DNA from: Ilex aquifolium
Lineage: Eukaryota; Streptophyta; Magnoliopsida; Aquifoliales; Aquifoliaceae
Assembly: GCA_951799425.1 (NCBI GenBank)
Contig: OX637395.1
Coordinates: forward strand, 10,064,951 to 10,128,950
DNA length: 64,000 nt
Reading direction: 5' to 3'
In this document: positions 1-63,214 of the stretch, one piece after another
Layout: each line of letters opens with the position of its first letter
How positions within the stretch are numbered: the first letter of the stretch is position 1
Position numbers and translations under genes: made by a program
The notes under the pieces: model-generated
Told to the model about the DNA's origin: nothing
Databases searched by the model: none
The model's input: the letters and a program-made list of their open reading frames with translations, nothing else

Positions 1-1170
1 AGTTAATTAATAAGGCTTAATGGGTAATGAGGACCCCCTAATTCTCATAGGAAGCGACCCCACTCCCACACTAATATAGGTGAAATCTGTCAAGGGTACT
101 CCTGTAATTCTGATACCCCACTCATAAGAGCTACAAATTTTCATTAAGAGTTTTTTAACAACTCAACCTGCATACATTAAAGGATAAATGCACTCATGCC
201 ATAGAGATAGATTCTTCAATCAATAAATGATCTAAAAGATAGTACGTATCTTACAACTACCATATGGTTCGTTTTTCCCATTGAACTCAGTTCTTAAGAT
301 CTCTGGTCCCTAGGTTGGGTATTCTCATACGTGGTTCTTGACTGTATGGGCTTCAACCCTACCCTCGTGATGTGATCCAGACCCTTGCTCTTCCCCAAGG
401 CCTTGGTTAATGGATCTTCAAGATTATCAGAAGATTTAACATACTCCATATTAATGATTTCACTACTCAAATATGATCTCACATTACTGTGTTTCCTCCT
501 GATAGGTCTGGATTTACCATTATAATAACAGTTTCTTACTCTACCAATTGCGGCAGTGCTATCACAATGAATCAAGATAGGTGAAACTGGTTTTTCCCAA
601 CAAGGGATTTCAAATAATAAATCCCTCAACCAATTTGCTTCTTCACTAGTTGAAGCTAAAGCAATAAGCTCAGCTTCCATGGTAGAATTAGCAAAAATGA
701 TTCATTTTTTTTAGATTTCCAACACATATAACACCACCACCCAATCTAAATATATAACCAGTGGTAGAGAGAGAATCACCTGACAAAGTATTCCAATCGA
801 CATTATAATAACCTTCAAGAACAGTAGGGTACATTTTGAAAAACAAGCTATTATTTTTGTTATTAACTAAATATTTCATTATTCTTTCCATGGCATGTCA
901 CTAATCTCTGTCAGGCTTGCTAGTAAATATGTTAAGTACTTCTATTGCATATCCAATGCCAAGTCTAGTACAATTAGTTACATAACGCAAGCTACCAATC
1001 ATTCTAGTATATTCCTTTTGATTAACAATATCAACATCACTTTTGACAGGATATAAGTGAACGCTTGAATCAAAATGAGTAGTTACATGCTTGCAATCAA
1101 TAAAGTTAAACTTTTTCAATCGTTTCTTAACACTGTGCGACTTATCCAGAAAAATACCATCACATGTTTT
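1..1170 (-). mobile_element. Ty1/copia pol remnant (RT end and RNase H)
   Basis: Reading leftwards, the translation gives the end of a copia reverse transcriptase and then copia RNase H. Family marks are the RMIGSLRYVTNCTRLGIGYA-type segment, AELIALASTSEEANWLRDLL, and HCDSTAAIGRV. The last 290 bases hold no coding match and are probably its 3' untranslated part. It is a fossil, broken several times, and is cut off on the right where a gypsy LTR begins at 1171. The left end lies outside the window, so LTR and age cannot be judged. Confidence 0.75.
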
Positions 1171-3485
1171 TGCGACGCCCTAATTCCCAGGCCCCACTGA
1201 TTAACACGAATTAAATTGCGGATTCCCCTTGATACTGTTGTCATACTTCGATACCACGTTGTGATACCCCTAAATCCAGGGTTCCTTTTCTCAACAAAAT
1301 TTTTTCAGAGTCTCCTTTGTACGGGAAACTCCACTTAACACACAACCTGTGCATATAATACTACTATGACCTTACCAAGGTCCCACATCAATATCCAAAC
1401 ATTATATACCTTTAATATTAACCCATTACTATCATCATACAACATACATTCATTCCCAAAAGAATATATGTCTATAAAGTCCCAATTACATATCATTTAA
1501 ATGAAATAATATACAAGGTTTGTTTAACAAAATATGCAAGGCAAAAGTAAATGAAACGAGACTAAACAACGCAAATGAAAGCCACATTCCAACTTCGTCC
1601 TCAAAGTGGGCCCAAGTGAGGGCCGTCAGTGGAAGCACGTTCTGTACGTGAAATATATCCCTATAAAGGGTGAATCAACGCTCAATAGGTATCTCCTATG
1701 GAGATCACCTTCCAACCCATATGCATATGAAGTACCATGCAATCTTAAACCTTTCCAAGCATTCAATTCACCTATATAAACATGAACAATGCTACTAATC
1801 CATGCCATGCTATGAAATGTAAACTCATGCATGCAATGCCAACACCGAGCCTCATCCCGAGCTCTCACAACACGTGCAATACCATGTGTATGAATCTAGG
1901 CTTTTCAAACCCCTACCATTGATGTTAAACATCCAATGAACATTTAATTAATTTCGTATCTTTTTGGGGCGGTGATTTATGGTCTTTCACCAACAGGACA
2001 CCAAACCGTCAACGGATCTTCAAGACATCCCACCCGCGACTCCGTTTTCGCTGTCACACTTTTATATGCTCATTACACCAACATAAAGTGCATAACTGAC
2101 ATTGTCGGGTCTTGCATCCGAGGGAGAATCTAACCCTTCTTACTATACCCCGACACGTTCATTTATGCAATTTCGGTGCGACTCAGCTTGACCTAAGTCT
2201 AACCTTCCCGAGCCCACCCGTCAACTCACCTAGGTGGTGATTGACCCAAACCCAAACCCATACACACACACTCACACTCATGTCAATGCCCACAAATGTA
2301 GTGCAATTCGTGCATATGCCCTGTAATGTACAATTTCAAGTCCATTTCATCGTAATGTTAATTATATCATGAAAGTATATAATAACATTTCATAAACATC
2401 ACCATGCATGCTATATATAATCATTATCCAAATAACATTATTGCATTTACCTAAGCATTTATCAAAAAACTTAATGGGCATAAAACGTAAACACATAGCA
2501 TACCCAAATAAGTTATTTCATCAAAACAAACATCTTACTCTCCGTAGGTCGTACCTCTCCTACCGGTAAGTTCACATTTTCACGACCAAACCCAATTCAA
2601 GCAAGACAAGGGTTCAATGAGTTCTCATATTCAACCTTAACCCTCTAATTACACTAGTCAAGAGATAAAATATGTGATACACACACCCATAGCCCTACCC
2701 ATTTCATATAGCAACCTTAGGGTGAAAGTAAACCTAGATAAGAGGGAACACTACCTCTTGTAGCGTGAATAAGGAACATAAATCCTTAGGAATGCTCAAA
2801 ACAAGTCTCTACAAGCCCTCCTTAAGCTCTAGCCCAAAACCTTGATTTCTGAAATTTGGGAAAAAGGGAAAAATTGGCATTGCCGCATAGCCCCTGTCGA
2901 GTAGATTGATTTCTGTTCTTGGTGTTTGATGATCCGACGGTTAGATATTGGCAAGATTTGAAGAAGAAGAAGGAGAAAAGTTGAAGAATGGTGAGCCCCC
3001 TTCTCTCTCTCTCTCTCTCTTCCAAAAATATCAAGAGAATGTGTGGTGGAAGACTTTGTCTACCACCTTTCAGCCCCTTTTATACTTGGCCTTTAAGGCG
3101 CCACGTGTCACTTTTTCATTGGTCTAATTTTGTCACCACCAATCACATCTTGCCACATGTCATGTTTGATATATTTATATCAAATTTAATTTAAATTATA
3201 TTATGGGTTTCGTAATTAAATCTAATTGCAGAATTTTTGCAATTAAAATCTAATTGCAGAATTTTAATCGCGCAATACCCGATCGCATCATAACACGTAA
3301 AAATTTGAATATCTCAGAATTCAATGAAAATTGATTGGCCAACTTGATTTCGCAAGATGAATCCAATGATGAAATCTATTTTATCATCCAAGTTATATAA
3401 AAATTTGAGTTTTTAACCCGTGGTTAAATAGACTAATTACCGTTTTATCCCTTTATTTAAGATTTTATTTTTTCTGGGTTTTATA
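1171..3485 (-). repeat. 3' LTR of the old gypsy element
   Basis: Begins tgcgacgccc and ends gggttttata on the + strand, directly beside a polypurine tract whose complement reads ccttaaggggga. It aligns by eye over most of its length with the solo LTR at 56788-59346. Shared blocks include the ataaagggtgaatcaacgct-type segment near 1665 and the gggtct...gaggga block near 2110. A TATA-like block (ctttatac complement, gtataaaagg) lies at 3077-3084 in - orientation. It lacks the TTCCGGAA array of its relative. Confidence 0.7.
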
Positions 3486-4097
3486 TTCTCCCCCTTAAGG
3501 GAATTTCGTCCCCAAAATTACACAACACATACACAACACGCTATAAATTTTAAATTTTACCTCCATCCTCAAACAAGAGTTTGATGCACTAGAATCAAAT
3601 AATACTCTAGTCCATAATTTGGAGAGAAGAAATGTATCATGAATCACTGACTGATCTACCGGTAAAATCTGTGGTGTGATGGCGAAGACTCGTTCCTGAG
3701 TCCCTGGCCTCGGCCTGCTCCCTGACTCGTCTGACCCTGCTAGGGTTTCCCCACACGTGAAGCTGTGGAGTTCTACCATGTAGTCTGATACTGGTACTGG
3801 TTTCCTTGACCCATGGTGGAAAAAGGAGGAACATAGAAGGTCTGGAGTGGTCTCACTAATGACTGGGACTGAGATGTCCATAGCTCTGTGCTCTTTGTCT
3901 TTGCAGACACTTTCTCTTCAAGTGGCCTGACTGATGACAATAGAAACATGTCTGTGGGCCTCCCTGTGATGTGCCCCTAGAATTTTTCCCGCCTTGGGAA
4001 GATTGGCCTTGGCCCTGATTGTCTCGGCCCTGTCCCTGTGACCCCTGTGGGGTCAAAGTCCTATATTTCTTCCCCGAGCTAGTAGTGGAGGACTGCC

Positions 4098-6445
4098 TGT
4101 AATGCCCAATACATGTATGTGTTTAAACCTATCTAATAAATAAATAGATAAATAAAAAGAAAGCAAATTATTTAGAAATTTAGAATTAGTTGTATGTTGA
4201 TGTCTTATGGTTAAACTATATATATATATATTTAGTGTATTGGGTACCAAGGGTAACTATAAAATAAGAATAATAATAATAAAAAAAGGGATAAAAGTGT
4301 GATTAAAATAAGTCCCCTTGCTGCCCTAGACGTCCACTGATATATGGATATATATATTCTCTTTCCATAATAATACCTACACACATGTTGGAATAAGAGA
4401 AAGGAAGGAGAGGCTAGGGCTTCAAGTAAAGAAAAAGGAAAAGAAAGAAGGAAGGGATTTAGAGAAGAAGGAAAAAAATTAGAAGATTTGATCGTCAAGG
4501 TTAGTCTTCATATTGAAATTTAAACTATGTATTTAATCATTATATGTACATATATTCAAGTTTGTAGCCTATTATATCTTGTTAGTAATCCATATTTGTA
4601 GGTTTATAGGGTTGAAATATGTGAATGCAAATATAATAGAGTGGGTATTTGTGTTAAGAAGATATTGAGAAAAAGGGGAAGAAAGAAAAAAAAGATGCAG
4701 ACCAAGCTTCTGGAATTCGTAAGGTTGAAGAAGATGAAAGTTTTGAAATTATGGAAACATCCCCTTTAGTTTTAAGTAGTTTTATTTTGATCTCTATACT
4801 TTTATAAACTCAATTTTTGACTACCATGGAACTTGGTAATTTATAGAACTGACCCAATATGTTTGAAACAAATATGGTCATTTCAAAACAGCCCCTGAGT
4901 CTTGAAAAATTTCTGAAATTTTGAAACGACCCCTAAAAGTTTCGATTAAGTGTTTAAAAATCAATGGTTACTCTAATAAATCAAATTGAGGTTGTATTCT
5001 TGAAAAATGGGTCTCTAGAACCTTAAATACTATTCTGAAAAATTTATGGCAGCCCCGAAAACAGAAAATTCGTTTTTAAGGAAATTACACTTTGCCCCAA
5101 AAGTTTCAAAAAAATTATGATTTGACCCCAAAACTTTAGAAACTTGTTCTAAACAGCCCAGAATACTTCCATACCCTATTACCTTGTATTAGAAAGGATA
5201 TTTACATATATAAAATATATTAAGTATATATCAATAGGTAGGAAGTATACAAATTAAATATAGAATCGCGAAACGATGAAGTTAGGAATATGGATTGATT
5301 GTTATATGTTATTTTGGATTAGGTGGTGATTGCATTGAGGTTGGGAAAGAGTGCTTTAAATTGGATTTTGGAAATCAAGGTGAGTAGTTTACTACTTCTT
5401 TTTGAGAGGATTTTCTATATTAAATGTGTGGGTGCGTGCGTGTGAATTTTTCATATATATGATATATGTGTTGATGTTTGGGGTTGCAATTAAATGTTTT
5501 GAAGTTGTGAACTGTTTTACATGTGAATGTTGGAGAACTTGTGGAATGATTTTATATCATTGCTTTGGTGATGAAAGGGAAATTTTGTGTGCGTTGGAAT
5601 TAAAACTACAGTTTTGGTGTGTGTGTAAATCATGTTTATGAGACGGGGACTGGGGTTACCAGGTCTAAGTGGTAACAAGCGACTGGGCCAGTCATCAGGC
5701 TAGTGATGACAAGAGACTGGGCTAGTTACCAGGCTAGTGGTAACAAGAGACGGGGCCAGTCATCAGGCTAGTGATGACAAGCGACTAGGCCAGTTACCAG
5801 GCTAGTGGTAACAAACATGATTTGACAAATGTATTTGGAACTGAATGTGTTTGTGAGTGTTTTGGGTTATAAATGTCTTTTCATTTATAAATTTATTTAT
5901 GAGCATGGAATCATTTTGTTTAAATGATTATGTGGGAGGGGTTAGGGTACAGTTTGTTGTACGTATGTGTGTATCAAAGTTTATTTTCATATATAACTGT
6001 GGGATTTATTTTCACACCTCATTAGAGGTGGTTGTTATTCATAGGTCATTGTGCTCACCCAAACATATAACATTTTTCAAGAGATGATCAGGGTGAGGAG
6101 TAAGTCTGCTGATATACAAGAGATTAGAGGACTTGAAGATTTATTTTAGGTCTTCAGGAATAAATGTATTTTATAGTTTGAGACAAATATTCAATTGTTT
6201 TGGGAATAATGTTGCTTATGCTTAGAGTAGTAAACCTTATGGTTTAATTATTATTTATATGAGTTTAATAATGATGTTGATGATATTTAGTTTATTCCTC
6301 TGGTATTCATTAGGTCAATGAATTGGATCACTTTATTATTTGTCTTCCGCTATATTTTGCATTTATTATGCACAGGGTTGGTTGGTTAAGGCCTTGGTGG
6401 CCGGTCCGCCGCCCACCCTATGTGATCCGGGGTGGGGGTGTGACA
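4098..6445 (+). repeat. 5' LTR of the chromovirus
   Basis: Starts tgtaatgccc and ends ggggtgtgaca, immediately before the PBS. At 2348 bp it is long for an LTR. It carries the five-hairpin array at 5655-5812. It pairs with the LTR at 11252-13605, with scattered substitutions and small indels. Confidence 0.92.
5655..5812 (+). repeat. Array of five short hairpins in the 5' LTR
   Basis: Five inverted repeats lie at 5655-5676, 5691-5710, 5725-5744, 5759-5778 and 5793-5812, the last four at an exact 34-bp period. Units alternate between gttaccaggctagtggtaac and gtcatcaggctagtgatgac: 7-bp stems around a ggctag loop (8 bases in the first unit). The two stem types differ at two positions, and both arms change together. 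Spacers are of the type aagagactgggcca. Confidence 0.85.
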
Positions 6446-6622
6446 AGTTTGGTATCAGAGCCTAGGTTTATGGATTACCAGAGGATTAGGCTGAATCTTA
6501 AGAATTATTTACGGTTTAATTGATTTGGTTTGAGAGATGTGGAATGATGATACTAGTGCATAATATTATTGCTTTGGTGACTAAGACAAGTTAGTTTGTT
6601 TTATATTTTGTAGAAAGTATAG

Positions 6623-9600
6623 ATGGCTGCAAGAAAGAAAGGTAAGGGTGCTGCAAATGATAGGGCTGACATTAACGACGTTCCAGGGCTTGTAAATGAT
6701 GAGCCACCACTAAATTTCTATAGGGATATTGTGAAGGCCTTGCAGGGAATCACAAAGATCCTTGAAGGGCCGAAGGGTCAGAAGGAACTCGGCATTGAGG
6801 AGTTTAGGAGGATGGCACCTGCTTTCACAGGGACTACTACCCCTACGGAGGCAGAGAGTTGGATTATGGATATTGAGAAAATTCTGGAGGTCTCAAGGTG
6901 TGATGATGGTAAGAAAGTGGCTTATGCAGCTTTTATGCTTAAAGAGGAAGCTGGACATTGGTGGAGGATGGAGAAGGAAGTGAAGAGATATCTGACTACT
7001 CCAATGACTTGGGAGCAGTTCAAGATTGGATTCTTGGAGAGATATTTTCCACAGGTAGAGAAGGATCATTTGACACAAGAGTTCATGAATTTGGCTCAAG
7101 GGGGCATGACAGTTGGTGAGTACGAAGAAAAATTCACAAAATTAGCAAGACATGCCATGCACATGGTAGCAGATAAGAGACATAAAGCAAGGAAGTTTGA
7201 AAGAGGTCTAAAGTGGAGCATTAAGGAGAAATTGATTGCCTTGGAACTACCAACATATCAAGAGGTTTTCCGCAAGGCTCGAGTTTTGGAGGGCAGTGAA
7301 AAGGAAAAGGACAGGGAGAGGGAAGAAAAGAAGCGAACAGGCTCATGAGGTGACTTTAGGGGTGGTTCCCACAATTTCAAGAAGAGTAGATAGGGTACTT
7401 CATCATCTGGGTCCTTTGCACCAAGGTTTATAGGGCAACAGGGCACTGAACAGCTAGAAAAGTGTCATAAGTATGGGAGATTCCATGGGGACAAGCCGTG
7501 TTATGGAACCAATTGGGAACAACTTCTCTGCTTCAATTGTGGCAAGACAAGACACTCATCAAAGAATTGTTGGAGTGCTCAAGGAAACAAACAAGTTAGT
7601 GAACAGACGGAGGTGACATGTTTCAAGTGCAACCAACGAGGACACATTTCAAGGTTTTGTCCCTAGCTAGTGCAGGAATCAGTAGGCAAGCCTCCAGCTA
7701 AGACAGATGGTGCATCAAAACAGGGTCAACAGAAGGAACAGAGGTTTGGGAGGGTCTATGCAATGACACCAAAGAGCCCACAAATTCTAATTCCTTAGTA
7801 TCAGGTACTTTACTTATTTGTGAGCATGTATTTAAAGTACTTATTGATCCGGGGTCTACACATTCTTTTGTATCTCCTCGAGTAGCAATGAGATTAGGTG
7901 TTGAACCCAAAGCACTTGAGTTTGATTTGATTGTGACTATTCCTATGGGTTCTAAGTTAGGAGATGTCGTGTACCCAGGGTGTAGGGTCCACATTGAGGA
8001 GAATCAATTACTAGTTGATTTAATACTCTTAGACCTTAAGGGTTTTGACGTGATCTTGGGTATGAACTAGTTAGCTGCGCACCGTGCGACAGTTGATTGT
8101 TTTGAAAAGAGAGTTGTGTTTCATCCTCCTAATCACAAAAAATTTAGTTTCCAGGGAACATGGATTATTTCTTTCCCCAGCCTTGTCTCTGTAGTACAAG
8201 CTCGAAGATTGTTGAGGAAAGGTTGTCAAGGATACATTGCTAACATTATAGATATGAGAAATGAGGGGTTATCTCTAGAGGAGATACCAATAGTAAGGGA
8301 ATTTTCAGAAGTATTCTCGGATGTCCTGCCTGGGTTGCCACCTGATAGAGAGATTGAGTTTGCTATTGACCTGGTACCGATACTACCTCTAAGGCTCCTT
8401 ATCGTATGGCACCAGTGGAGCTTAGAGAGCTAAAGGTGCAACTTCAAGAGTTGTTAGATTTGGGGTTTATTCGGCCTAGTGTGTCACCATGGGGCGCACC
8501 AGTACTATTCGTGAAAAAGAAAGACGGAAGCATGAGACTTTGCATTGACTATAGGGAGTTGAACAAAGTAACCATCAAGAATAAGTATCCTCTTCCCCGC
8601 ATTGATGATTTGTTTGACTAACTACGAGGTGCTAAAGTATTCTCGAAGATTGACCTTCGAACGGGTTACCACCAGTTGAAGATAAAGGTGGAGGATGTGC
8701 CTAAGACTGCTTTCCGTACTCGTTATGAACACTATGAGTTTCTTGTGATGCCATTTGGGCTAACCAATGCACCAGCAGCCTTTATGGATCTCATGAATCG
8801 AGTGTTTAAGCAGTACTTGGATCAATTTGTGGTGGTATTTATTGATGATATTTTGGTGTACTCGAAGAGTCCTGAGGAACATGAACAACATTTAAGAATT
8901 GTTCTACAGACTCTTCGAGATTGAAAGCTTTATGCCAAGCTCAAGAAATTTGAGTTCTGGCTGACTAGTGTATCATTTTTAGGACATGTGATTTCTGATG
9001 AAGGGGTGTCAGTGGATCTTCAGAAGGTGGCAGCAGTTAAAGATTGGCCTCGACCGACGAATGCTACTGAGGTACGTAGTTTCTTGAGTTTGGCAGGGTA
9101 TTACAGGAAATTTGTCGAGGGTTTCTCCAAAATTGTCATTCCATTGACTCGGTTGACCAAGAAGAAGGTAGTTTTTCAGTGGACGGATGAATGTGAAAAC
9201 AGTTTCAATAACTTAAAAGAAAGGTTGGTGTCTGCTCCAGTTCTTACCATACCTGCAAATAATGGTGGGTATGATATCTACTGTGATGCTTCAGGGAAAG
9301 GGTTGGGTTGGGTTGTGTATTGATGCAACACGGGAAGGTTGTGTATTGATGCAACACGGGAAGGTTGTGGCTTATGCTTCTAGGCAGTTGAAACCTTATG
9401 AGCAGAATTACCCAACACATGATTTAGAACTGGCAGTTGTGGTGTTTGCACTAAAGATATGGAGACATTATTTGTATGGGGAGACATGTGAGATATATAT
9501 AGATCATAAGAGTCTTAAGTATTTGTTTACATAGAAAGAGATGAACATGAGACAGAGAAGATGGCTAGAGCTAATCAAAGACTATGATGTGAATTTGCAC

Positions 9601-11240
9601 TATCATCCAGGGAAAGCAAATGTGGTGGCAGATGCACTAAGTAGAAAGTTTATAGGAAGCATGGCCTCTTTGCTTACTCAACAAAAACAACTTGTGAGGG
9701 ATCTTGAAGAGGCAAAGGTTGAGGTGGGGATACCTGAGACTAATGCTTTTGTAGCAAGCTTGCAAGTTCGGCCTACCTTGCTAGATCGAATAAAGGAGGC
9801 ACAACTGAATGACTCGAATTTGGTGAAGATTTTAGAAGAAACATAGCGAGGTGAGAAGACTGATTTTCGTGTGGCAGATGGAGTGTTGAGATTTGGGGAT
9901 AGAGTATGCATACCTAATGACCCAGAGATCAAGAAACAAGTGATGGAGGAGGCCCATTACTCTCATTTCACAGTTTATCCGGGAAGTACAAAGATGTATC
10001 AGGACTTGAAAGGATTATTTTGGTGGAATAATATGAAGAGGGAAGTGGCTGCCTATGTTTCTAGGTGTTTGACATGTCAAAAAGTGAAAGCAGAACACCA
10101 AAGGCCAGGAGGATTATTGCAACCACTTCCTATCCCTGAGTGGAAGTGGGAGCACATTACCATGAATTTCGTGAGTGGGCTACCCAAGACCCCGAGTGGA
10201 CTTGATTCTATTCGAGTTGTGGTGGACAGATTGACAAAGTCCACACACTTCTTGCCTGTGAGGACTACTTATCCCTTGGAGAAATTTGCTAAGCTTTATG
10301 TTAAGGAGATTGTGAAATTACATGGGGCCCCAGTGTCGATCGTTTCAGATAGAGATCCTCGATTTGTCTCAATGTTTTGGGGTAGTTTACAAAAGGCTAT
10401 AGACACCGAGTTGAGATTTAGTACAGCTTACCACCCTCAGATAGATGGACAGTCGGAGAGAGTTATTTAGATATTAGAAGACATGCTTCGTGCTTGTGTG
10501 CTTGACTTAAAAGGTTCTTGGGAAGAGCATTTACCACTAGTTGAGTTTGCTTATAATAACAACTTTCAAGCTAGCATTGGCATGGCACCGTATGAGGCTT
10601 TATATGGGCGAAAATGTAGATCTCCAATTTGTTGGGCTGAAGTCGGGGAAAGAAAGATATATGGGCCAGAGATAGTACAAGAGCCCATGGATAAAGTACA
10701 GTTGATTTAGGAAAGACTTCGGGTTGCTCAGAGTAGACAGAAAAGTTACGCGGACAATCGGAGGAGAGACTTAGAATTTCAAGAGATCGATCATGTATTC
10801 CTAAAGGTGTCACCTTGGAAAAGGATTATGAGATTTGGTAAAAAGGGGAAGTTGAGTCCAAGGTATATTGGACCCTTCGAGATTCTAGGAAGAGTTGGTG
10901 AAGTGGCTTATAGGCTAGCCTTACCACCAGAGTTGGCTAATATCCACAATGTGTTTCATGTATCAATGCTTAGGAAGTACATGCCAGATCCATCACATGT
11001 AATTGAGGTTGAGCCGCTACAAATGTGAATGGATTTGTCTTATGAGAAGCTACCAGTGAAGATCTTGGATCGAGAAGAACGAGTATTGAGGAACAAAGTC
11101 TTTCCATTCGTTAAAGTTTTGTGGAAGAACCACTCGAAGAGGGAAGCTACTTGGGAGAGCGAACAAGAGATGAAGAAAAAGTACCCACAGTTGTTCCAAC
11201 CGTGGGATGCACCAAGTTTGGAGGACCAAACTTCTTGAAG
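6623..11240 (+). pseudogene. gag-pol remnants of the chromovirus
   Basis: Approximate parts: gag capsid region 6623-7350, with the retrotransposon gag signature around GHWWRME; two CCHC zinc knuckles near 7530-7660 (CFNCGKTRHSSKNC, CFKCNQRGHISRFC); protease 7820-8070 (LIDPGSTHSFV); RT 8400-8990 (FIDDILVYS); RNase H 9250-9540; integrase 9870-10710 (HHCC-like finger, then DRLTKSTHF and SDRDPRFVS); chromodomain-like tail 10960-11240. It is a fossil with about ten interruptions and cannot encode a working polyprotein as it stands. Confidence 0.9.
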
Positions 11241-11251
11241 GGGGGGAGAGT

Positions 11252-13605
11252 TGTAATGCCCAATACAGGTATGTGTTTGGACCTATCTAATAAATAAATA
11301 GATAAATAAAAAGAAAGCAAATTATTTAGAAATTTAGAATTAGTTGTATGTTGATGTCTTATGGTTAAACTATATATATATATTTAGTGTATTGGGTACC
11401 AAGGGTAACTATAAAATAAGAATAATAATAATAAAAAAAGGGATAAAAGTGTGATTAAAATAAGTCCCCTTGCTGTCCTAGACGTCCACTGATATATGGA
11501 TATATATATTCTCTTTCCATAGTAATACCTACACACACGTTGTAATAAGAGAAAGGATGGAGAGGCTAGGGCTTCAAGTAAAGAAAAAGGAAGAGAAAGA
11601 AGGAAGGGATTTAGAGGAGAAGGAAAAAAATTAGAAGATTTGATCGTCAAGGTTAGTCTTCATATTGAAATTTAAATTATGTATTTAATCATTATATGTA
11701 CATATATATAAGTTTGTAGCCTATTATATCTTACAAGTAATCCATATTGGTAAGTATATAGGGTTGAAATATGTGAATGTAAATATAATAGGGTGGGTAT
11801 TTGTATTAAGAAGATATTGGGAAAAAGGGGAAGAAAGAAAAAAAAGATGCAGACCAAGCTTCTGGAATTCGTAAGGTTGAAGAAGATGAATGTTTTGAAA
11901 TTATGGAAACATCCCCCTTAGTTTTAAGTAGTTTTATTTTGATCCCTATACTTTTATAAACTCAATTTTTGACTACCATGGAACTTGGTAATTTATAGAA
12001 CTGACCCAATATGTTTGAAACAAATATGGTCATTTCAAAACAACCCCCGAGTCTTGAAAAATTTCTGAAATTTTGAAACGACCCCTAAAAATTTCGATTA
12101 AGTGTTTAAAAATCAATGGTTACTATAATAAATCAAATTGAGGTTGTATTCTCAAAAAATGGGTCCCTAGAACCTTAAATACTATTCTGGAAAATTTATG
12201 GCAGCCCCAAAAACAGAAAATTCGTTTTTAAGGAAATTACACTTTGACCCCATAAGTTTCAAAAAAATTATGATTTGACCCCAAAACTTTAGAAACTTGT
12301 TCTAAACAGCCCAAAATACTTCCATACCCTATTACCTCGTATTAGAAATGATATTTATATATAAAATATATATTAAGTATATATCAATAGGTAGGAAGTA
12401 TAAAAATTAAATATAGAATTACGAAACGACGAAGTTAGGAATATGAATTGATTATTATATGTTATTTTAGATTAGGTGGTGATTGCATTGAGGTTGGGAA
12501 ATAGTGCTTTGAATTGGATTTTGGAAATCAAGGTGAGTAGTTTACTACTTCTTTTGGGAGGATTTTCTATATTAAATGTGTGTGTGCGTGCGTGTGGATT
12601 TTTCATGTATATGATATATGTGTTGATGTTTGAGGTTGCAATTAAATGTTTTAAAGTTGTGAACTGTTTTACATGTGAATTTTGGAGAACTTGTGGAATG
12701 ATTTTATATCATTGCTTTGGTGATGAAAGAGAAATTTTGTGTGCGTTTGGGACTAAAACTACAGTTTTGGTGTGCGTGTGGAAATCATGTTTATGAGACG
12801 GGGACTGGGGTTACTAGGTCTAAGTGGTAACAAGCGACTGAGTCAGTCATCAGGCTAGTGATGACAAGAGATTGGGCCAGTTACCAGGCTAGTGGTAACA
12901 AGAGATGGGGCCAGTCATCAGGCTAATGATGACAAGCGACTAGACCAGTTACCAGGCTAGTGGTAACAAACATGATTTGACAAATGTATTTGGAACTGAA
13001 TGTGTGTGTGAGTGTTTTGAGTTATAAATGTCTTTTCATTTATAAAGTTATTTGTGAGCATGAAATCATTTTATTTAAATGATTATGCGGGAGGGGTTAG
13101 GGTACAGTTTGTTGTATGTATGTGTGTATCTAAGTTTATTTTCATATATAACTGTGGGATTTATTTTCACACCTCATTAGAGGTGGTTGCTATTCACGAG
13201 TCATTGTGCTCACCCAAACATATAACATTTTTCAGGAGAGGATCAGGGTGAGGAGTAAGTCTGCTGATATACAAGAGATTAGAGGACTTGAAAATTTATT
13301 TTATTGTAGGTCTTCAGGAATAAATGTCTTTTATAGTTTGAGACCAATATTCAATTGTTTTGGAAATAATGTTGCTTATGCTTAGAGTAGTAAACCTTAT
13401 GGTTTAATTATTGTTTACATGAGTTTAATAATGATGTTGGTGATGTTTAGTTTATTCCTTTGGTATTCATTAGGTCAATGAATTGGATCACTTTATTATT
13501 TATCTTCAGCTGTATTTTGCATTTATTATGCACAGGGTTGGTTGGTTAAGGCCTTGGTGGCCGGTCCGCCGCCCACCCTATGTGATCCAGGGTGGGGGTG
13601 TGACA
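11252..13605 (+). repeat. 3' LTR of the chromovirus
   Basis: Starts tgtaatgccc after the polypurine run aagggggggagag and ends ggggtgtgaca, directly before the second CTGCC. It is 2354 bp, against 2348 bp for the 5' LTR. Confidence 0.92.
12810..12967 (+). repeat. Array of five short hairpins in the 3' LTR
   Basis: Same five-unit array as at 5655-5812. Both alternating stem types are kept. The substitutions in this copy fall mostly in the spacers. Of those inside units, one turns a stem pair into a G-T wobble (gttacta...tggtaac) and one lies in the loop of a gtcatca unit (ggctaa for ggctag). Confidence 0.85.
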
Positions 13606-14910: not shown

Positions 14911-15595
14911 TGTTGATACATTTTAATATTATATATCATTTAATGTATAATGTACATACATGAATCTTAATATACAATGTATAATATAGATACATGTGTA
15001 ATACTTACTCCTATGCATGAATCGTATTTATGAGATGAATGTATAATGTGTATACATGAAGTTGATGCATACATGTATCTCTTATTAATTTCTATACATT
15101 AACCATATTTATTCGATGCATGTATAAACTATGTTCATGAACTTTACCCATGCACATCATATATGACTTATATGCATAAATTAATTATTAGGGTTAATTG
15201 CACTAGAGGTCCCCACAGTTTGGGTTTGGCTCATTTTGGTTCCCAATATTTTAATTGTATCATTTTAGCCCCTGAAGTATTGAATATGTTTCTATGTAGT
15301 CCCTCAAGTAGACAACATTCAGATTGCTAACGGTTTTTTATCATAAACTTATCACGTGATACCTGAATATGGGCAAAAAATAATTTGGGTGGCTTTTGAT
15401 AAAAAATGTGTAATATAGGTAGCCCTTGATCAAAATTTAGATAGCTTATGATCAAAACTATATAATTTGGATAGCTCTTTGACAAAAATTAGGATAGAAA
15501 TTTGATCAAAAGTTATCCAAATTATTTTTTTGCCCATATTTAGGTATTATATGACAAGTTTATAATCAAAAATTGTTAACAATCTGGACGTTATC

Positions 15596-18394
15596 TATGA
15601 GACCCGAGAATGCACGATAGACATTTTAATATTATGAATTTGAATGTTACATAATCTAGTCACAGTCAAACTTTAGTCCGTAAATTAAAAAGGGAGATAT
15701 CGGGAATACAATGAATAGTGTGTTGATCTCGATAAAAATATTTATTGTAAGCATATTCACATGTGATATGCATGCGCATGGTTGGTAATCATTATTTAAT
15801 TAGGAATGGTGATATGAGACTTGAACCTGAAGGATGAATATTTTAAAAGATAGAGATAATTTTATAAATAATGATTATAGGGGAAATTGTTTTATTAAAA
15901 GTGTGAAAAGCTAAATACGAATGTTGAGATAGTATATGACTTTATTATTTTATGTACGTTGACGCCTGTGGAATTAATTGGGTGACAAGCATGTGACATT
16001 AATTTATTGCTATAAAAATAAAATGTGTTAGTATGTGCAAGGAGTGGTTAAGGGTCCAAAATACGAATTTAATGGTTTATCAATATTTTTGGATATATGT
16101 ATATACATCTCTATGTGTAATATGAATACAAGAAAAAAAAAGGGTATATACATATAAGTGTACAAATATAAGAAATATATGTATAAGGAATATATATATA
16201 ATATGCAAACAATGATGGAATAGTCCACTTTGGAAGACATGCAAGACATGATATGCAAGCAATGATGGAATAGTCCACTTTGGAAGACATGCAAGACATG
16301 TCTTGCATGCAAATAAAATAAAAATAATAAAACCAAGGGTGGGGAATGCAAGTGACGGTTAGAAAGAAAAACAACAAGTAAGGTCACATGCAAGGCGAAG
16401 GGAAAGGAGAGAGAAAAAAAAAAAAAAGAAAAGGGGTCTTGCACTTGGGGATTTCGGCTAGAGTAAGAACTAAGAGGGAAAGAAGAAGAAAACCAAGGGA
16501 AGAAAGAAGGAAAGAAAGAAAAAAAAAAAACTCTCCACTTGAGAATTTCGGCCAAGACTAGAAGGGGGAAATGTTGGAGCTTGGTGGTGGGCTTAATGGT
16601 GGAAGACATGATGGTGCTTGGTGGTGAAGGAAGTGGATACAAGAGGTAAGCTTAGTCATGTAATCTACTTTCTCTCCTCTTGAATGTATGGATACATTTC
16701 TAGTGTATGTATTTGGGTATTGCATGTGGGTTAAATGGGATGCTTGTGGTAATTGTGTTGTAACATGGGTGTTGCATGGAAAATTAACATAATGCTTGTG
16801 TGGGTGTGTGAGCATAATTAATGTTGTTGCATGAAAAATAAAAAGAATGGAATTGTTATATGTGGGTTGAATTTTAGTCAAGAAAGATAGTAGTTTGGTG
16901 GGTAACTTAGAAATCTTGTGAATTGTTCTTTAACTTTCATAAATTCATGGATATAATTTAATTTCAAGAAAGCATGCAATTTTATGGTTTTATAGAAAAT
17001 GGAGTAAATTCAAGTATACTTTTGTATTTGCAATTAAATGGGAAATGTTTAATTTAGTGTAATTGGTTCAAATAAATATTATTTTAACAGATTTGAGAAG
17101 ACTAGCTCAATCGATTCGAGTAGATAATTTTACTCGATATGAATGGATTATTTAATTTGACTCGAATTGATTATTAAGCTACTAGCTTAATCGATTCGAG
17201 TAGATAATTTTACTCGATGCGAATAGATTATTTAATTCGACTCGAATTGATAATTGAACTCGGTTCGATTAAACTATTTCAAACTTGAGCATTATTACGT
17301 ATTAATGTTTGAGTGGAATTGCAAATATTGGGTGTGCTAGGCCTGGAGGCGAACACCTCAAAGTACGCCTCACTCAAAGTTCTGGCAGAGGGGTCATCTA
17401 CAAGGTAGAATTCCACGCAAGGTAGGTGCACTACCCTACAACTTTTTGTGATAATTTATTAGACTTTTAAACATATGTTTTTACTATGGTTATTGTTGGG
17501 AATAATTAATTGATCGGGGACACACGGTACATTACGAGAGTCGTTTAAATGACGAGAGAGGATTATGTGATTTCAGTGGTCTAAGTAACATGAAGTATTT
17601 ATATAGCTTGAGTTGTTTATGTGACGGGATTTGATTATGTGGTGGAGTCGTCTAAGTAACGTGATCAAAAACTCTCTGTGATGTGGGTCATCTGAAGGAA
17701 AACCATTAATGTGGTTTGGGTTGTCCCACTGATGAATGATATCTATGAGGTGTTACAAGCTTGCGATACATGTGGCCTATGTGGCGCAAGAACTTGCACA
17801 ACTAAATATAGTCTGTGTGGCGGTTGTTGTTTACAAGGCAATTAGTTTGTGTGCGTGTAGGGTATTCTTTGTGAGGAATAATTTAATTATGTGGAAGTAA
17901 ATATATGTGTTGTATATTTTGTCGATGTGATATATACAGGTTATGCCTATGCAATGTAAACAAATGTGTATGAGGTGAAGTGTAATTTGAAAGTAAGTAT
18001 TTAATTCGTGGTTAAGGTTGTTCCTAAATAAATAAAGTTTCATTTATCACTTATTGTGCTCTTAAATATTAATTGCATCTTTGCTTTTACTAATGGTCTT
18101 AATGACTTTTCAGGAAAAACCATAAAGACGTGAGGAGTCCACTGCCGAGTCTAGAGGGTCGATTGAGATGTCATCATGGGGTTTATTTTAATATGACCTT
18201 TAAATTTAAATTGTATTATTCTATGTCATATTCTTGAGATCAATATTATGGTTTGTAAATAAGCAAGGCTCATGGCAAGCCGTACCACTAAGGGATTATA
18301 TGATTTTTTTTTATGCTTATTTTTACATAAAGAAAGGTGTATGACAATAATAAGCAGGGATTACAGATATTGTACCCCGGGTTGGGGTGTTACA
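15596..18394 (+). repeat. 5' LTR of the LARD-like element
   Basis: 2799 bp, from tatgagacccgag to ggggtgttaca. It could equally start at the TG at 15598; the first two bases TA are shared by both copies and lie between the TG and the duplication TTATC. Inside are a 55-bp tandem duplication (around 16203-16312) and an 80-bp tandem duplication (17102-17265). Open frames within it are low-complexity and not credible genes. Confidence 0.92.
17102..17265 (+). repeat. 80-bp tandem duplication with TCGAGTA dyads
   Basis: Two copies start at 17102 and 17182 (ctagctcaatcg and ctagcttaatcg). Each holds a short dyad, tcgagta...tactcga, around gataatttt, followed by a gactcgaattga block. The same pair is present in the 3' LTR, 7096 bp downstream (24198-24361). 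Confidence 0.75.
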
Positions 18395-19799
18395 ATTTTT
18401 GGTATCAGAGCATAGGTTTATAGGTTCTGTAGACAAGTGTGTTTAGGTCGGCAGTGGACAGTTTAGGGTGTCTATTTATTGTAGAGTTAAACATTTAGAT
18501 GCTAATGTTATGTACGTGTATATCTAATAATGTTAATTTAGAATTTTATGGGTGAGGAACGTGGCAGACAACGTCAACAGGGGGTGGTGGTTATAGAATG
18601 TGTATAATGTATTTCAGAGTATATCTGAAATTACGGTGTGGAAGAAAACACGGTAGATTAGATTTATTGAATTACGAATGAAAATACAGGTAACTACCTA
18701 AGTAGAGAATGTGTGTGGTAAGTTAAGTGGTTTGTTTGTGAGTAGTTTATTACATTGTGGTTGCACATCTTAGTATGAAAAAAAAAAAAAAAAAAAAAAC
18801 TTGGAAATTAATGATGGATTACATAATAATTCTTGACAACTTCAATTTCTGATAATTGAACTTTTGGTGACCGTACATATTAGTTGCAATCAATTTGTGA
18901 AAGTGTCAAAAGTGAAAAAGTAGTAATAATAACATTATTTGAATAATATTGTTATGAGTATTCCCAAGATCCTATGTTTTTAAACTCAAAGGAAAATATC
19001 TGCGATTGAGGATAAGGAAGTAATTTATTATGGGATTTTGTTTGCTGATTTTGGAGTAGAGTTTTCGGTTTTCATCCGTCTATTTTCCTAAAGTTCTTTA
19101 TGGTATTCAAATTTCAATTCAACTTCATTTTCTTAAAAACATAGTTTGGTTACGATGACATAATTAGCAGGTGAGGCTTGAGTGGATCAGTAATATCGCT
19201 TTGGAAATGGATTATAAATGGGTTGATCTAATAATCATATATGCATATCTAGTGCATAACGCATATATGGAGAATATTTATATGAAATTTGTGATGATAA
19301 GTGACAGGTAGAGATAACGATAGTGATGTCGATGTTAACTAGTATTTTGAAAGCGGAATAATTTTAAAAATTAAAAGAAAAATGCTATATTGTGATGTCT
19401 ATTCGAGTTGACATTTGATTGTCTAATTATATGATTTTCTTTTCACTTGTGTGTAAGATTATAGTTTGTGAGATATTCTGGTATGACGGAAGCGTGGTGT
19501 TATAGACTGTTGTTATTTAAGTGGTGGATTTAACTTTTATGTGGTTAACGTGGTGTTATATGTGAGTTGTTTTTCTATATAATTGATCATAGTAAGAATA
19601 TGCTTACGTGGTATTAATATATATGTGAGTTGAATATGAACTTAAAGATGAAAATGTGAATATGTTGTGTAGCGTTGAGAATAAGTTAGTCTTTATGACT
19701 AATGTTGCTTGTTAATAAAAAGTGAGTGTGTGGACTATTGACAGTCAAAGATAATATGATTGTTGAATTACCTCAAATGGTAAGTGAATAGTATATTTG

Positions 19800-20660
19800 C
19801 TAGTGCAACCCTAAAGGGGTGGTTGTTTGGCCTTAGTGGCGATTGTGTGGCCTTAGTGGCAATTGGTGCCTTAGTGGCTGGCCTTAGTGGCGATTGTGTG
19901 GCCTTAGTGGCAATTGGTGCCTTAGTGGCGGATGCCTTATTGACATATAGCCTTAATGGCTAGGTTGTTGTCTTAGTGACGGATATATGACCTTAGTGAC
20001 GAATTATGTCTTATTGGCGAATTATGCCTTGATGGCAGATATTGTCTTAAAGGCAAGTGTTTAGCCTTAGTGGCGAGAACGGCCTTAGTGGCGGATGTAT
20101 ATACGTGGATGCCATATATGATGGCTTATGGATGAATTTATATCTGGATGTCATATATAATGATTTATGGATGTGTTAATGTGAATGCCATATAGAATGG
20201 TTAATGAATGTGTAGATATGAAAGCTATCTATGACGGCTAATGTAATTGTCTTAGTGGAGAGATGACATTGTCTTAACGGCAGATGTATCTATATAGGTA
20301 ATTGTGTGATCTTAGTTGTGTTATTTGTCATAATGACAGATGTAGCCTTTGTGGTAGGTTATGCTAAAAAGCAGATATAGCCTTAATGGCTAAGCTACGA
20401 CCTTAGTGGTGAAATTGTGTGATTGTCATACATAAGGACTTATGTATGTGTATATATAATTGATATACACGTATGAATGCCATGTATAATAGCTCATGAA
20501 CGGATGTATGTATGTTAAGACCATCTATGATGACTTGTGAGTTTTTATCTATCAAATGTTTGATGAGATGATGTTATAATTGAGAAATATAGCCTTGATG
20601 GCTAATATATATTGCCTTAGTGGCAAGGTGATATCGATTTAATGGCAGATGCGAATTTAT
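19800..20660 (+). repeat. Degenerate array of CCTTAGTGGC units
   Basis: About thirty diverging copies of a word close to ccttagtggc, spaced roughly 15-30 bp, with variants such as ccttaatggc and tcttagtgac. Some are interleaved with atgccatatatgatggc-like units. The first part is nearly regular (gccttagtggcgattgtgtg repeated). It lies inside the non-coding interior of the LARD-like element and holds no open frame. Confidence 0.8.
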
Positions 20661-22691
20661 AAGATTGATATGGATGAATCATGATACCATGACATCCAAC
20701 CAAAGATTGATATGTTTATCCATGAATGAACATCTAATTTTCTTGATCATGAATTTGTTCCTGTGTATGGTAATTTGTAAGGTAAAACACTTTAGTTTGA
20801 AGGAAGGAAATGAAAGATAAAAGCGGTGATGTTGTGATAAAACATGATTATGGAAGAATAACTTATGGTGTAATTATATTATGTTATAGAGTATGTATTA
20901 AGTGGATGATTGAAATCAGTATGGTGGTTGATTATAATCATTATCATAACCACTAATGTGGTGATTATGATATAATAAATTTAATAGTGCAGATGAATGA
21001 GAATGAATGAATTAGGAATTACGACACTTACTGCTGGAATTGATTTAGTAGTATAAATATCTATAATTATGGAAACTCGTGAATAGGTTTTACTAGAACA
21101 AAATTTTTATGAAATTGAATTTATGAAGTTCTAATACAAGTATATACTTGAGAAATGGAGATAACTGAAATAAGAATTACATGAGAAGGCAAATGAAATG
21201 TTCTGAAGAATAGTTAAATGATTGGTGTCGTATATATAGGTAGACATACCTATGTCTTTTGAATTTCATGGTTATGTGCATTGATGCGTGTTGGATTTCT
21301 AGATAATCTTAAAATGGATATCTAACTTAAGTAGAAATCGATAATGGGGAAAAATAAAACCAAGTAGACAATTGAAAGATGAATGTGAGGTTGGTATATA
21401 TATGGATAAAATGTGTTGAAAGTTTGATTTGCTAGTATGGAAGTACATAATGGGTATATAAGAAAAGTATATTTGTCAGATCAAATGGAAAGATATTAAT
21501 ACTGGTAATACCAGTTCTATGATTATTTTATTTATTTTATTTTATTTGGAGTATAAAACTCCGCTGCATTTGTGAAATTTAATTCCACCAAGTTTATCTT
21601 GTTATGTTTATGACCTTTCAAAAAAAAAAAAAAAAATGTTGTAGAAACATGTTAATGTGGGGGTTGGTTATGCTAAAAAATAAGGATTTTATTTTTGTTT
21701 GTAGGTACCCCTGGTATCGAAAATTTTACTATGGAATAACATATCGGGTGTGATGAATATGTAGTTGAGGATTGTTGTACACATAACTAATACACGAAAG
21801 TTATGGCTAAAGGTAGTGGAGAAGATAGTTATGTGAACCTAACTTAAGAATGTTGAAAATAGAATTTCCCAAACTAGGAGTATTAAGGGTGGACAATGAG
21901 GTCTATCAGTTTATTTTCAATTGATTACAATGTTATATGAGGACTTGTTGTATACAATATCAATTCTTATATGATGTGAATATTAATCTAAATAAAATGT
22001 GACTTTGGATGAGAAAAGGAAGATTATAAACATATCATAGTGTAAAAATGTAGCTATGATTCCGAGGCAAGTTACCAGCAATTAATATGTAATTGTGAAC
22101 ACGAGAAATGATAACATCATCCAACTATATTTTTTAGAGGTAAATGATTCAAATGCTTTACTTGAATCTCTCTTGATAATGATAGAATAATATTGTACGA
22201 ACAAATTATGAGAATATGTAGTAAGAGAATGACTGGTGGATATATATGAGTTTGTAAAAGGTTTATAAGATTCTCTAAAATTGAGTATATGTATGTGTAT
22301 ATGTTAATCTGGTTTTGTTGGACATGTTAAGAAAGGTAATATGTTACATTAAATAATTACTTAAAGTGTAGATTAATTTGCTAACATAACGTTGTTGAGA
22401 GGTTATGTGAAAATTATGACCAACGAGCCAGGAAAGATAGTATGGTTAACTCAAAAGAACTTATACATGGAAGTAAACAGGAATAATATTGGTTATAATT
22501 TCTAGTGCTTAAATGACACTGAATATTTGGTATTAGATAGTTTACTAAATTAGTTGGTTAATTGCCTTGTGATAATTTGTTGATGTGGTTTTCTTTGAAT
22601 TCAATGAAACTGATTATATCAACAATTTACTCATCTAAATTAGTGCAATAAGTGAATTTCGAGGACGAAATTCTTTTAAGAGGGGAAAAGT

Positions 22692-25490
22692 TATGAGACC
22701 CGAGAATGCACGATAGACATTTTAATATTATGAATTTGAATGTTACATAATCTAGTCACAGTCAAACTTTAGTCCGTAAATTAAAAAGGGAGATATCGGG
22801 AATACAATGAATAGTGTGTTGATCTCGATAAAAATATTTATTGTAAGCATATTCACATGTGATATGCATGCGCATGGTTGGTAATCATTATTTAATTAGG
22901 AATGGTGATATGAGACTTGAACCTGAAGGATGAATATTTTAAAAGATAGAGATAATTTTATAAATAATGATTATAGGGGAAATTGTTTTATTAAAAGTGT
23001 GAAAAGCTAAATACGAATGTTGAGATAGTATATGACTTTATTATTTTATGTACGTTGACGCCTGTGGAATTAATTGGGTGACAAGCATGTGACATTAATT
23101 TATTGCTATAAAAATAAAATGTGTTAGTATGTGCAAGGAGTGGTTAAGGGTCCAAAATACGAATTTAATGGTTTATCAATATTTTTGGATATATGTATAT
23201 ACATCTCTATGTGTAATATGAATACAAGAAAAAAAAAGGGTATATACATATAAGTGTACAAATATAAGAAATATATGTATAAGGAATATATATATAATAT
23301 GCAAACAATGATGGAATAGTCCACTTTGGAAGACATGCAAGACATGATATGCAAGCAATGATGGAATAGTCCACTTTGGAAGACATGCAAGACATGTCTT
23401 GCATGCAAATAAAATAAAAATAATAAAACCAAGGGTGGGGAATGCAAGTGACGGTTAGAAAGAAAAACAACAAGTAAGGTCACATGCAAGGCGAAGGGAA
23501 AGGAGAGAGAAAAAAAAAAAAAAGAAAAGGGGTCTTGCACTTGGGGATTTCGGCTAGAGTAAGAACTAAGAGGGAAAGAAGAAGAAAACCAAGGGAAGAA
23601 AGAAGGAAAGAAAGAAAAAAAAAAAACTCTCCACTTGAGAATTTCGGCCAAGACTAGAAGGGGGAAATGTTGGAGCTTGGTGGTGGGCTTAATGGTGGAA
23701 GACATGATGGTGCTTGGTGGTGAAGGAAGTGGATACAAGAGGTAAGCTTAGTCATGTAATCTACTTTCTCTCCTCTTGAATGTATGGATACATTTCTAGT
23801 GTATGTATTTGGGTATTGCATGTGGGTTAAATGGGATGCTTGTGGTAATTGTGTTGTAACATGGGTGTTGCATGGAAAATTAACATAATGCTTGTGTGGG
23901 TGTGTGAGCATAATTAATGTTGTTGCATGAAAAATAAAAAGAATGGAATTGTTATATGTGGGTTGAATTTTAGTCAAGAAAGATAGTAGTTTGGTGGGTA
24001 ACTTAGAAATCTTGTGAATTGTTCTTTAACTTTCATAAATTCATGGATATAATTTAATTTCAAGAAAGCATGCAATTTTATGGTTTTATAGAAAATGGAG
24101 TAAATTCAAGTATACTTTTGTATTTGCAATTAAATGGGAAATGTTTAATTTAGTGTAATTGGTTCAAATAAATATTATTTTAACAGATTTGAGAAGACTA
24201 GCTCAATCGATTCGAGTAGATAATTTTACTCGATATGAATGGATTATTTAATTTGACTCGAATTGATTATTAAGCTACTAGCTTAATCGATTCGAGTAGA
24301 TAATTTTACTCGATGCGAATAGATTATTTAATTCGACTCGAATTGATAATTGAACTCGGTTCGATTAAACTATTTCAAACTTGAGCATTATTACGTATTA
24401 ATGTTTGAGTGGAATTGCAAATATTGGGTGTGCTAGGCCTGGAGGCGAACACCTCAAAGTACGCCTCACTCAAAGTTCTGGCAGAGGGGTCATCTACAAG
24501 GTAGAATTCCACGCAAGGTAGGTGCACTACCCTACAACTTTTTGTGATAATTTATTAGACTTTTAAACATATGTTTTTACTATGGTTATTGTTGGGAATA
24601 ATTAATTGATCGGGGACACACGGTACATTACGAGAGTCGTTTAAATGACGAGAGAGGATTATGTGATTTCAGTGGTCTAAGTAACATGAAGTATTTATAT
24701 AGCTTGAGTTGTTTATGTGACGGGATTTGATTATGTGGTGGAGTCGTCTAAGTAACGTGATCAAAAACTCTCTGTGATGTGGGTCATCTGAAGGAAAACC
24801 ATTAATGTGGTTTGGGTTGTCCCACTGATGAATGATATCTATGAGGTGTTACAAGCTTGCGATACATGTGGCCTATGTGGCGCAAGAACTTGCACAACTA
24901 AATATAGTCTGTGTGGCGGTTGTTGTTTACAAGGCAATTAGTTTGTGTGCGTGTAGGGTATTCTTTGTGAGGAATAATTTAATTATGTGGAAGTAAATAT
25001 ATGTGTTGTATATTTTGTCGATGTGATATATACAGGTTATGCCTATGCAATGTAAACAAATGTGTATGAGGTGAAGTGTAATTTGAAAGTAAGTATTTAA
25101 TTCGTGGTTAAGGTTGTTCCTAAATAAATAAAGTTTCATTTATCACTTATTGTGCTCTTAAATATTAATTGCATCTTTGCTTTTACTAATGGTCTTAATG
25201 ACTTTTCAGGAAAAACCATAAAGACGTGAGGAGTCCACTGCCGAGTCTAGAGGGTCGATTGAGATGTCATCATGGGGTTTATTTTAATATGACCTTTAAA
25301 TTTAAATTGTATTATTCTATGTCATATTCTTGAGATCAATATTATGGTTTGTAAATAAGCAAGGCTCATGGCAAGCCGTACCACTAAGGGATTATATGAT
25401 TTTTTTTTATGCTTATTTTTACATAAAGAAAGGTGTATGACAATAATAAGCAGGGATTACAGATATTGTACCCCGGGTTGGGGTGTTACA
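22692..25490 (+). repeat. 3' LTR of the LARD-like element
   Basis: 2799 bp, a copy of 15596-18394 at an offset of exactly 7096 bp with no indel and no substitution that I noticed. It is followed directly by the second TTATC. Confidence 0.92.
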
Positions 25491-25750
25491 TTATCTGCTT
25501 GAGAGACGACATAGAAACATATTCAATACTTCAAGGACCAAAATGATGCAATTAAAATATTAGGGACCAAAATGAGACAAACTCTATACTTTGAAGACCT
25601 CTAGTGCAATTAACCATAATTATTAATATATACATGTATAGTTATATATATATGTGCTTTGTGAATACGTGTATGCCTCGGATACATGAACTCTCGAAGG
25701 TTCTTAAAGCCTATAAATAAGACTTTTAAGTTGGGCATTTGAACACTTAT

Positions 25751-48851: not shown

Positions 48852-55957
<7,106 letters not shown>

Positions 55958-56029
55958 TCTCCGGAGGCCTGCGTCTCTGTGTGTGGGTTACAGGGTGTGC
56001 TGTCAGTTTTAAACTAGTGCTACTTTTGG

Positions 56030-62137: not shown

Positions 62138-62173
62138 TATTGAGCCACATAGTTCCATCATTATTAACAATTT

Positions 62174-63205: not shown

Positions 63206-63214
63206 TAACAATTT

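Follow-up and report, generated by a model that had tools for sequence, protein, structure and literature searches.

The window analysed here, a stretch of 64,000 nucleotides from Ilex aquifolium (C5:10064951-10128950 of an 800-Mb genome assembly), carries at positions 15596-25490 a 9.9-kb element with two long terminal repeats (LTRs) and an interior in which no genes were recognised. With high confidence, we regard it as a real and very young large retrotransposon derivative (LARD) of the lineage that, on the basis of pol-domain matches in relatives, end motifs and general knowledge of the group, is probably Tekay/Del (Ty3/gypsy chromoviruses). The features by which LARDs, first described in Triticeae, are recognised were found: LTRs with a target-site duplication (TSD), a primer-binding site (PBS) and a polypurine tract (PPT), a length of 9.9 kb with a non-coding interior, and dispersed copies with the same interior. 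The parts of the element and its target are as follows.

15152-15595, no strand: fold-back (long inverted repeat) target, left part
15591-15595, no strand: left TSD, TTATC
15596-18394, forward strand: 5' LTR, TATGAGACCC...GTGTTACA, with TA..CA ends
15596-16101, forward strand: U3 block X, 506 bp
18395-22691, forward strand: entire non-coding interior, 4297 bp
18395-20264, forward strand: non-coding leader module, common to subfamilies with different LTRs
18400-18411, forward strand: PBS TGGTATCAGAGC, of presumed initiator tRNA-Met type
22640-22691, forward strand: relic of a Tekay-type 3' end (pol end to PPT); identity to relatives with pol 81-84%
22678-22690, forward strand: PPT AAGAGGGGAAAAG
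22692-25490, forward strand: 3' LTR, same sequence as the 5' LTR
25491-25495, no strand: right TSD, TTATC
25496-25657, no strand: fold-back target, right part

A base-by-base comparison at an offset of 7096 revealed no difference between the LTRs (2799 of 2799 bases identical), and the run of identity ends exactly at both LTR boundaries. This is in line with the LTR coordinates and identity given in a first-pass annotation of the window, whose clean TTATC duplication, tRNA-Met-type PBS and PPT were also located. The 5' LTR and the PBS are separated by a spacer of 5 nt, the PPT and the 3' LTR by a single T. The interior has a GC content of 30.9%.

The U5 end, TTGGGGTGTTACA, fits type A as described for Tekay/Del in the part of the survey considered here (PMC4029996), with GGG at -8 to -10 and an ACA end. 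The strict Tekay/Del U3 motif TG is replaced by TA in the window copy, which does not call the Tekay/Del origin into question because relatives with otherwise similar ends begin with TG. According to the same part of the survey, LTRs are largest in Del/Tekay (1.1-4.4 kb), and the averages of eudicot subgroups in the table rows seen are 1.2-2.4 kb (PMC4029996); element A, which lies next to the LARD, has LTRs of 2.35 kb. LTRs of this length, called uncommon in the first-pass annotation, may be so for LTR elements at large, but not for Tekay/Del. As far as that excerpt describes the lineage, the LARD resembles it in the type A U5 end, the tRNA-Met-type PBS, the LTR size and the pol-end relic, and differs from it in the lack of gag and pol and in the TA start of U3. 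Mtr58 of Medicago, in the excerpt used, is a further Tekay/Del element for comparison (PMC2533021).

Coding capacity, insertion site and age

Coding capacity in the interior, which the first-pass annotation had listed as evidence against a LARD, was not detected by reading frames, a Pfam subset or tblastn. Its statement that no frame exceeds 60 codons holds for frames starting with ATG (longest 49 codons) and is slightly too strict for stop-to-stop frames (longest 73); in 200 base shuffles of the interior the mean longest frames were 68 and 91 codons, respectively. A Pfam scan of 10 of the 131 interior pieces of at least 20 amino acids (the nine longest and one of 42 amino acids) gave two matches, both under the curated cut-offs (E 0.027 and 0.049). 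When 11 gag and pol pieces of gypsy relatives were compared with interior and LTR by tblastn, one match was obtained (E 0.72); in the control, 10 of the 11 queries matched control sequences (three only themselves), and one gag piece matched none. An antisense frame of 207 codons in the LTR was rejected as a gene, as Pfam gives nothing in it at E 0.01; within the superfamily, ten further LTRs have longest antisense frames of 80-146 codons.

The sequences 15152-15315 and 25491-25657 on the two sides of the element are inverted copies of each other (84% alike), and removal of the element together with one TTATC brings the flanks together in a palindrome of 606 bp, 79% alike to its reverse complement. 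The site of insertion is one arm of this long fold-back repeat, and because removal of the LARD restores the repeat, the insertion is real. Long identical repeats are a classic assembly risk, and a misassembled duplicate had been named as an objection by the first-pass annotation. A restored palindromic target is, however, hard to obtain from misassembly, and other complete copies with different TSDs are present in the genome, so that we give scarcely any weight to a misassembled or collapsed duplicate without a real insertion.

At rates of 1.3e-8 and 7e-9 per site and year, 0 differences in 2799 positions correspond to an insertion age of less than about 0.04-0.08 million years (My; approximate upper 95% limit). 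The LTRs of the neighbouring element A (4098-13605) differ at 98 of 2345 positions (1.7-3.1 My), and thus the LARD lacks the divergence of old elements that would have spoken against its youth. Identical LTRs, a clean target duplication and the restored target together support a very recent insertion.

Further copies and graded relatives

A search for other copies in the genome, proposed in the first-pass annotation, yielded at least 44 matches to the first 600 LTR bases (best 40 of 377 candidates scored), at least 40 to the LTR-end/PBS region, 22 of them full length (best 40 of 446), and at least 54 to the PPT region, 7 of them full length including the window (best 40 of 312). All of these counts are lower bounds, and 20 matching stretches were analysed. 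The full 4297-bp interior recurs at L011 (98.5% identity to the window), L012/L013 (97.9%) and L014 (97.8%), where the LTR pairs differ at 4 of 2762, 0 of 2754 (two pairs) and 0 of 2061 positions, respectively; the LTR of L014 is without positions 1052-1743. Of the 13 elements for which both ends were available, 12 have equal 5-bp flanks, and L011 has unequal ones with a 4-bp CTAG in common. LTR differences number 0-6 in 12 of the 13 dated elements, and L025 has 33 in 2576. Because these elements were chosen as best database matches, their youth is partly a matter of selection. Outside the 13 are partial copies without a datable LTR pair (L022, L024, L029 and L030) and a complex locus (L019/L020).

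Two of the loci are arrays, L012/L013 with the order LTR-interior-LTR-interior-LTR and L027/L028, and in each of them one pair of 5-bp duplications surrounds the whole array. Three-LTR complexes with TSDs have been described before; in the part of that report used here, template switching is proposed for few and recombination for most of them (PMC1950507). A further tandem or three-LTR array is possible at C12:750680 and 757550, as seen from match spacing only. At the half-pol locus L019/L020, which is complex, repeat spacings of 6306 and 8740 bp overlap, and no match to window LTR positions 1760-2799 was found. Cousins that we judge to be older (C3:39493079-39494212, C20:21354732-21355668 and similar ones) are 85-90% alike to the 3' end of the interior and to LTR positions 142-600; they could represent LARDs of greater age or an ancestor with coding capacity.

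In principle, the LTR identity could also stem from gene conversion or recent homogenisation in an older insertion, and other members, including the three-LTR arrays, have identical LTRs as well. Yet the run of identical bases at the offset is confined exactly to the LTRs, the low LTR differences (0-6 in 12 of the 13 dated elements) occur at dispersed places, and regional homogenisation is contradicted by the divergent LTRs of the adjoining element A. We see a very small chance for this explanation. The pol-end relic beside the PPT could furthermore suggest a coding element that lost its genes after insertion and never moved as a LARD. As the same 4.3-kb interior sits in young copies at other sites, it must have been copied in its non-coding state, which leaves this alternative with a negligible probability and favours a young LARD that moved as such.

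Several relatives share only parts of the interior. In L023, L025, L027/L028 and L019, the leader extends to about interior position 1870 and is directly followed by the 3' half of pol. In these nearest pol-bearing relatives, this half comprises late reverse transcriptase (RT)/RNase H, an integrase zinc finger and a Tf2-type SH3 domain, with strong matches for RNase H, zinc finger and SH3, while the matches to rve and Chromo are under the curated cut-offs (Chromo best E 8.7e-4). L026 contains interior positions 1-4044 at 96.2% identity to the window, followed by only the last ~165 pol codons in two pieces. A second non-coding type (L015-L018 and L021) has interior positions 3-1905 and 2047-3547 in common with the window. 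Its LTRs, of which those of L015 and L016 were compared, can be aligned to the window LTR over no more than its final 55 bp; 73 bp of a window-type LTR start are kept upstream of the PPT in all five elements, and a pol-end stub is present in the four whose 3' ends were displayed. Taken together, the relatives look like a reduction series that runs from intact-frame elements (see below) through half-pol elements and the ~165-codon pol stub to two non-coding types, and genes would have been lost in this order. LARDs are often seen without visible parents; with all of these types in one genome, gene loss with continued movement may be read step by step.

Between the window and nine elements of other subfamilies (L015-L018, L021, L023, L025, L026 and L027), the first 1780 bases of the leader are 97.3-98.1% alike at aligned bases and 89.9-95.2% alike with gaps included, the more distant subfamilies having 42-142 gap columns. 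In L023, L025 and L027, similarity of the LTR to that of the window is limited to the part that starts at position 1760 (94%), and the LTR of L026 matches in parts from position 766 on. In L030, the 506-bp block X is directly followed by a canonical LTR start; block X itself was rejected as a duplicate of that start, since only about its first 19 nt match. As the leader is 97-98% alike while the LTRs align only in part, modules appear to have been swapped among subfamilies, and recombination between co-packaged RNAs is the likely cause of the mosaic structure. Soybean partnerships of autonomous and non-autonomous elements reportedly include LTR swapping. The LARD family resembles these and the ONSEN copies of Arabidopsis, among which, in the part of the report considered, recombination has been argued (PMC5668417), in its mosaic elements with exchanged LTRs and interiors; in contrast to both, what its members share is a non-coding leader, which is found attached to several types of LTR.

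It may be speculated, although we regard this as rather doubtful, that the ~1.8-kb leader, which starts at the PBS, acts as a portable module for trans-mobilisation: whichever Tekay LTRs recombination joins to it, coding relatives would package or copy the product well. The presence of the leader at 97-98% (aligned bases) in at least three LTR types, each with very young copies, would then be accounted for. However, the sample was drawn by leader and LTR of the window element, and a coding family without most of the leader (family 2, see below) is also very young. The agreement of the leader across subfamilies might also reflect a function of the interior beyond the cis signals of retrotransposition, for example a gene for a small protein or for a discrete non-coding RNA. 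But the interior frames are no longer than in shuffles, the pieces scanned gave no Pfam match above cut-off, the leader contains many gaps, and recent sharing by recombination explains its identity equally well; we thus concede such a function only a small chance.

Candidate helpers and movement in trans

A protein search with the RT/RNase H piece of L025 (best 150 of 19758 candidates scored) gave two main groups. Family 1 has about 88-92% amino acid identity to the half-pol piece and some long frames of up to 1551 amino acids; the three copies examined reach 90-92% and have open frames of 1259-1551 amino acids. Family 2 has 75% identity and eight equal-scoring copies, five of them with 1600-amino-acid frames. 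The ends alone were compared, for three copies of family 1, one of family 2 (together with its gag start) and one of a third family. Family 1 has PPT, LTR start and pol end in common with the half-pol type (92-97% over 146-198 bp) and an LTR that is 75-78% alike to that of L015; its U5 and PBS context differ from the LARD. At C4:26191833-26214666, four family 1 matches are evenly spaced at about 7.43 kb, as seen from match spacing only. Family 2 and the LARD have the same last 13 U5 bases, spacer and PBS and a similar leader start, and their LTRs share stretches of more than 100 bp at 65-80%; LTR positions 142-506 of block X, measured on the L030 copy, are about 75% alike to the family 2 LTR. 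At least one family 2 copy inserted recently; in the comparison of its two LTRs, 677 of 677 bases were identical.

In a 105-nt 5' box, family 2 is 77% alike to the LARD, two family 1 copies 57%. A third intact-frame family (C2:41491282) was rejected as helper on the basis of this box (46%); its 3' box was disregarded because of a misplaced LTR start. Element A is a coding but broken Tekay-type gypsy element with gag, protease, RNase H and integrase pieces, LTRs that are 95.3% alike and the TSD CTGCC. It was also rejected as helper, its pol being 54-67% alike to the half-pol pieces at longer matches (79% at one of 48 amino acids) and its ends 47% (5' box) and 51% (3' box) alike to the LARD.

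Families 1 and 2 are thus candidate helpers, each of which matches only parts of the LARD, and a closer family may exist. The first-pass annotation had suggested a search for a coding gypsy element with similar LTR ends and PBS region; family 2 answers to this in its U5 end, PBS and leader start, but not in its LTRs as a whole. To judge from these comparisons, the LARD was with high probability mobilised in trans by proteins of coding relatives. The assumption of that annotation that it moved with the proteins of another element is supported by the young copies with the same interior and by the intact-frame Tekay-type families with partly matching ends. Some results weigh on the other side: the 3' box is 70-71% alike to family 1 and only 61% to family 2, and no coding family with near-identical LTRs was found among the best 150 of 19758 candidates scored.

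In the proposed course of events, RNA transcribed from the LTR would be packaged in particles of a coding Tekay relative, tRNA-Met would prime at the PBS, and the reverse transcriptase of the relative would copy the RNA before its integrase inserts the copy. The family itself may have originated when the non-coding leader replaced gag and the front of pol in coding elements, followed by stepwise loss of the remaining pol and template switching between co-packaged RNAs. Medicago families labelled LARD (Mtr77, Mtr83 and Mtr84; PMC2533021) are, by their description in the excerpt used, similar LTR elements without recognisable genes that are thought to move in trans. The interior of Mtr77 is said there to be about 200 bp only, whereas that of the window LARD measures 4.3 kb and has pol-bearing relatives in the same genome. 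The element is an additional LARD of an already known kind, distinguished by the visible series of relatives, the shared leader and its TA start.

The TA start and other features of the window

The LTRs of the window element begin with TA instead of TG (TATGAGACCC), a point absent from the first-pass annotation, while the half-pol, L026 and L015-type LTRs begin with TGTGAGACCC. Among X-type LTR starts from 21 sources, TA was found in 17 and TG in four (L039, L040, L042 and L044); the 3' LTR of L011 begins with AA. TG/CA ends are called highly conserved in Del elements in the part of the survey considered (PMC4029996). Clean TSDs occur together with identical LTRs in three TA elements (the window element, L012/L013 and L014), so the change from TG to TA at LTR position 2 has not prevented integration, and it is carried by many members. 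The TA start is a natural test of how strictly integrase depends on TG/CA ends.

An origin of TA from one single change was rejected, since an unrooted tree of 20 X blocks, with TG copies among TA copies, needs two label changes; the supports of this tree are weak, its starred branches force only one change, and a query with a TA start favours TA matches. L045 and, where an element had contributed one LTR already, its second or third one (win3, L011, L014 and L012/L013) are left out of the tree; L038 and L043 may be two LTRs of one element. In the tomato element TARE1, according to the excerpt used, both LTRs likewise begin with TA, which has been explained by one G-to-A change and subsequent amplification; unlike the LARD, TARE1 belongs to the Ale lineage of Copia elements and has LTRs of 194 bp (PMC3701649). 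The Medicago TRIM element Mtr75 also starts with TA, as stated in the part of the report considered (PMC2533021).

Elsewhere in the window, host gene pieces at 45858-46544 and 55439-55987 encode a SINA-type E3 ligase zinc finger and a phosphoribosyltransferase domain, the latter presumably UMP-synthase-like. An inverted repeat at 62171-63208 (62171-62556 versus 62831-63208, 80% alike) overlaps with a 168-bp tandem repeat at 62644-62949. Tandem repeats of 31 bp with the palindrome ACCTTCCGGAAGGT lie at 57086-57342 and in the second half of L047, and on C18 the ACCTTCCGGAAGGT motif was also noticed by eye, downstream of the start of a family 1 LTR.

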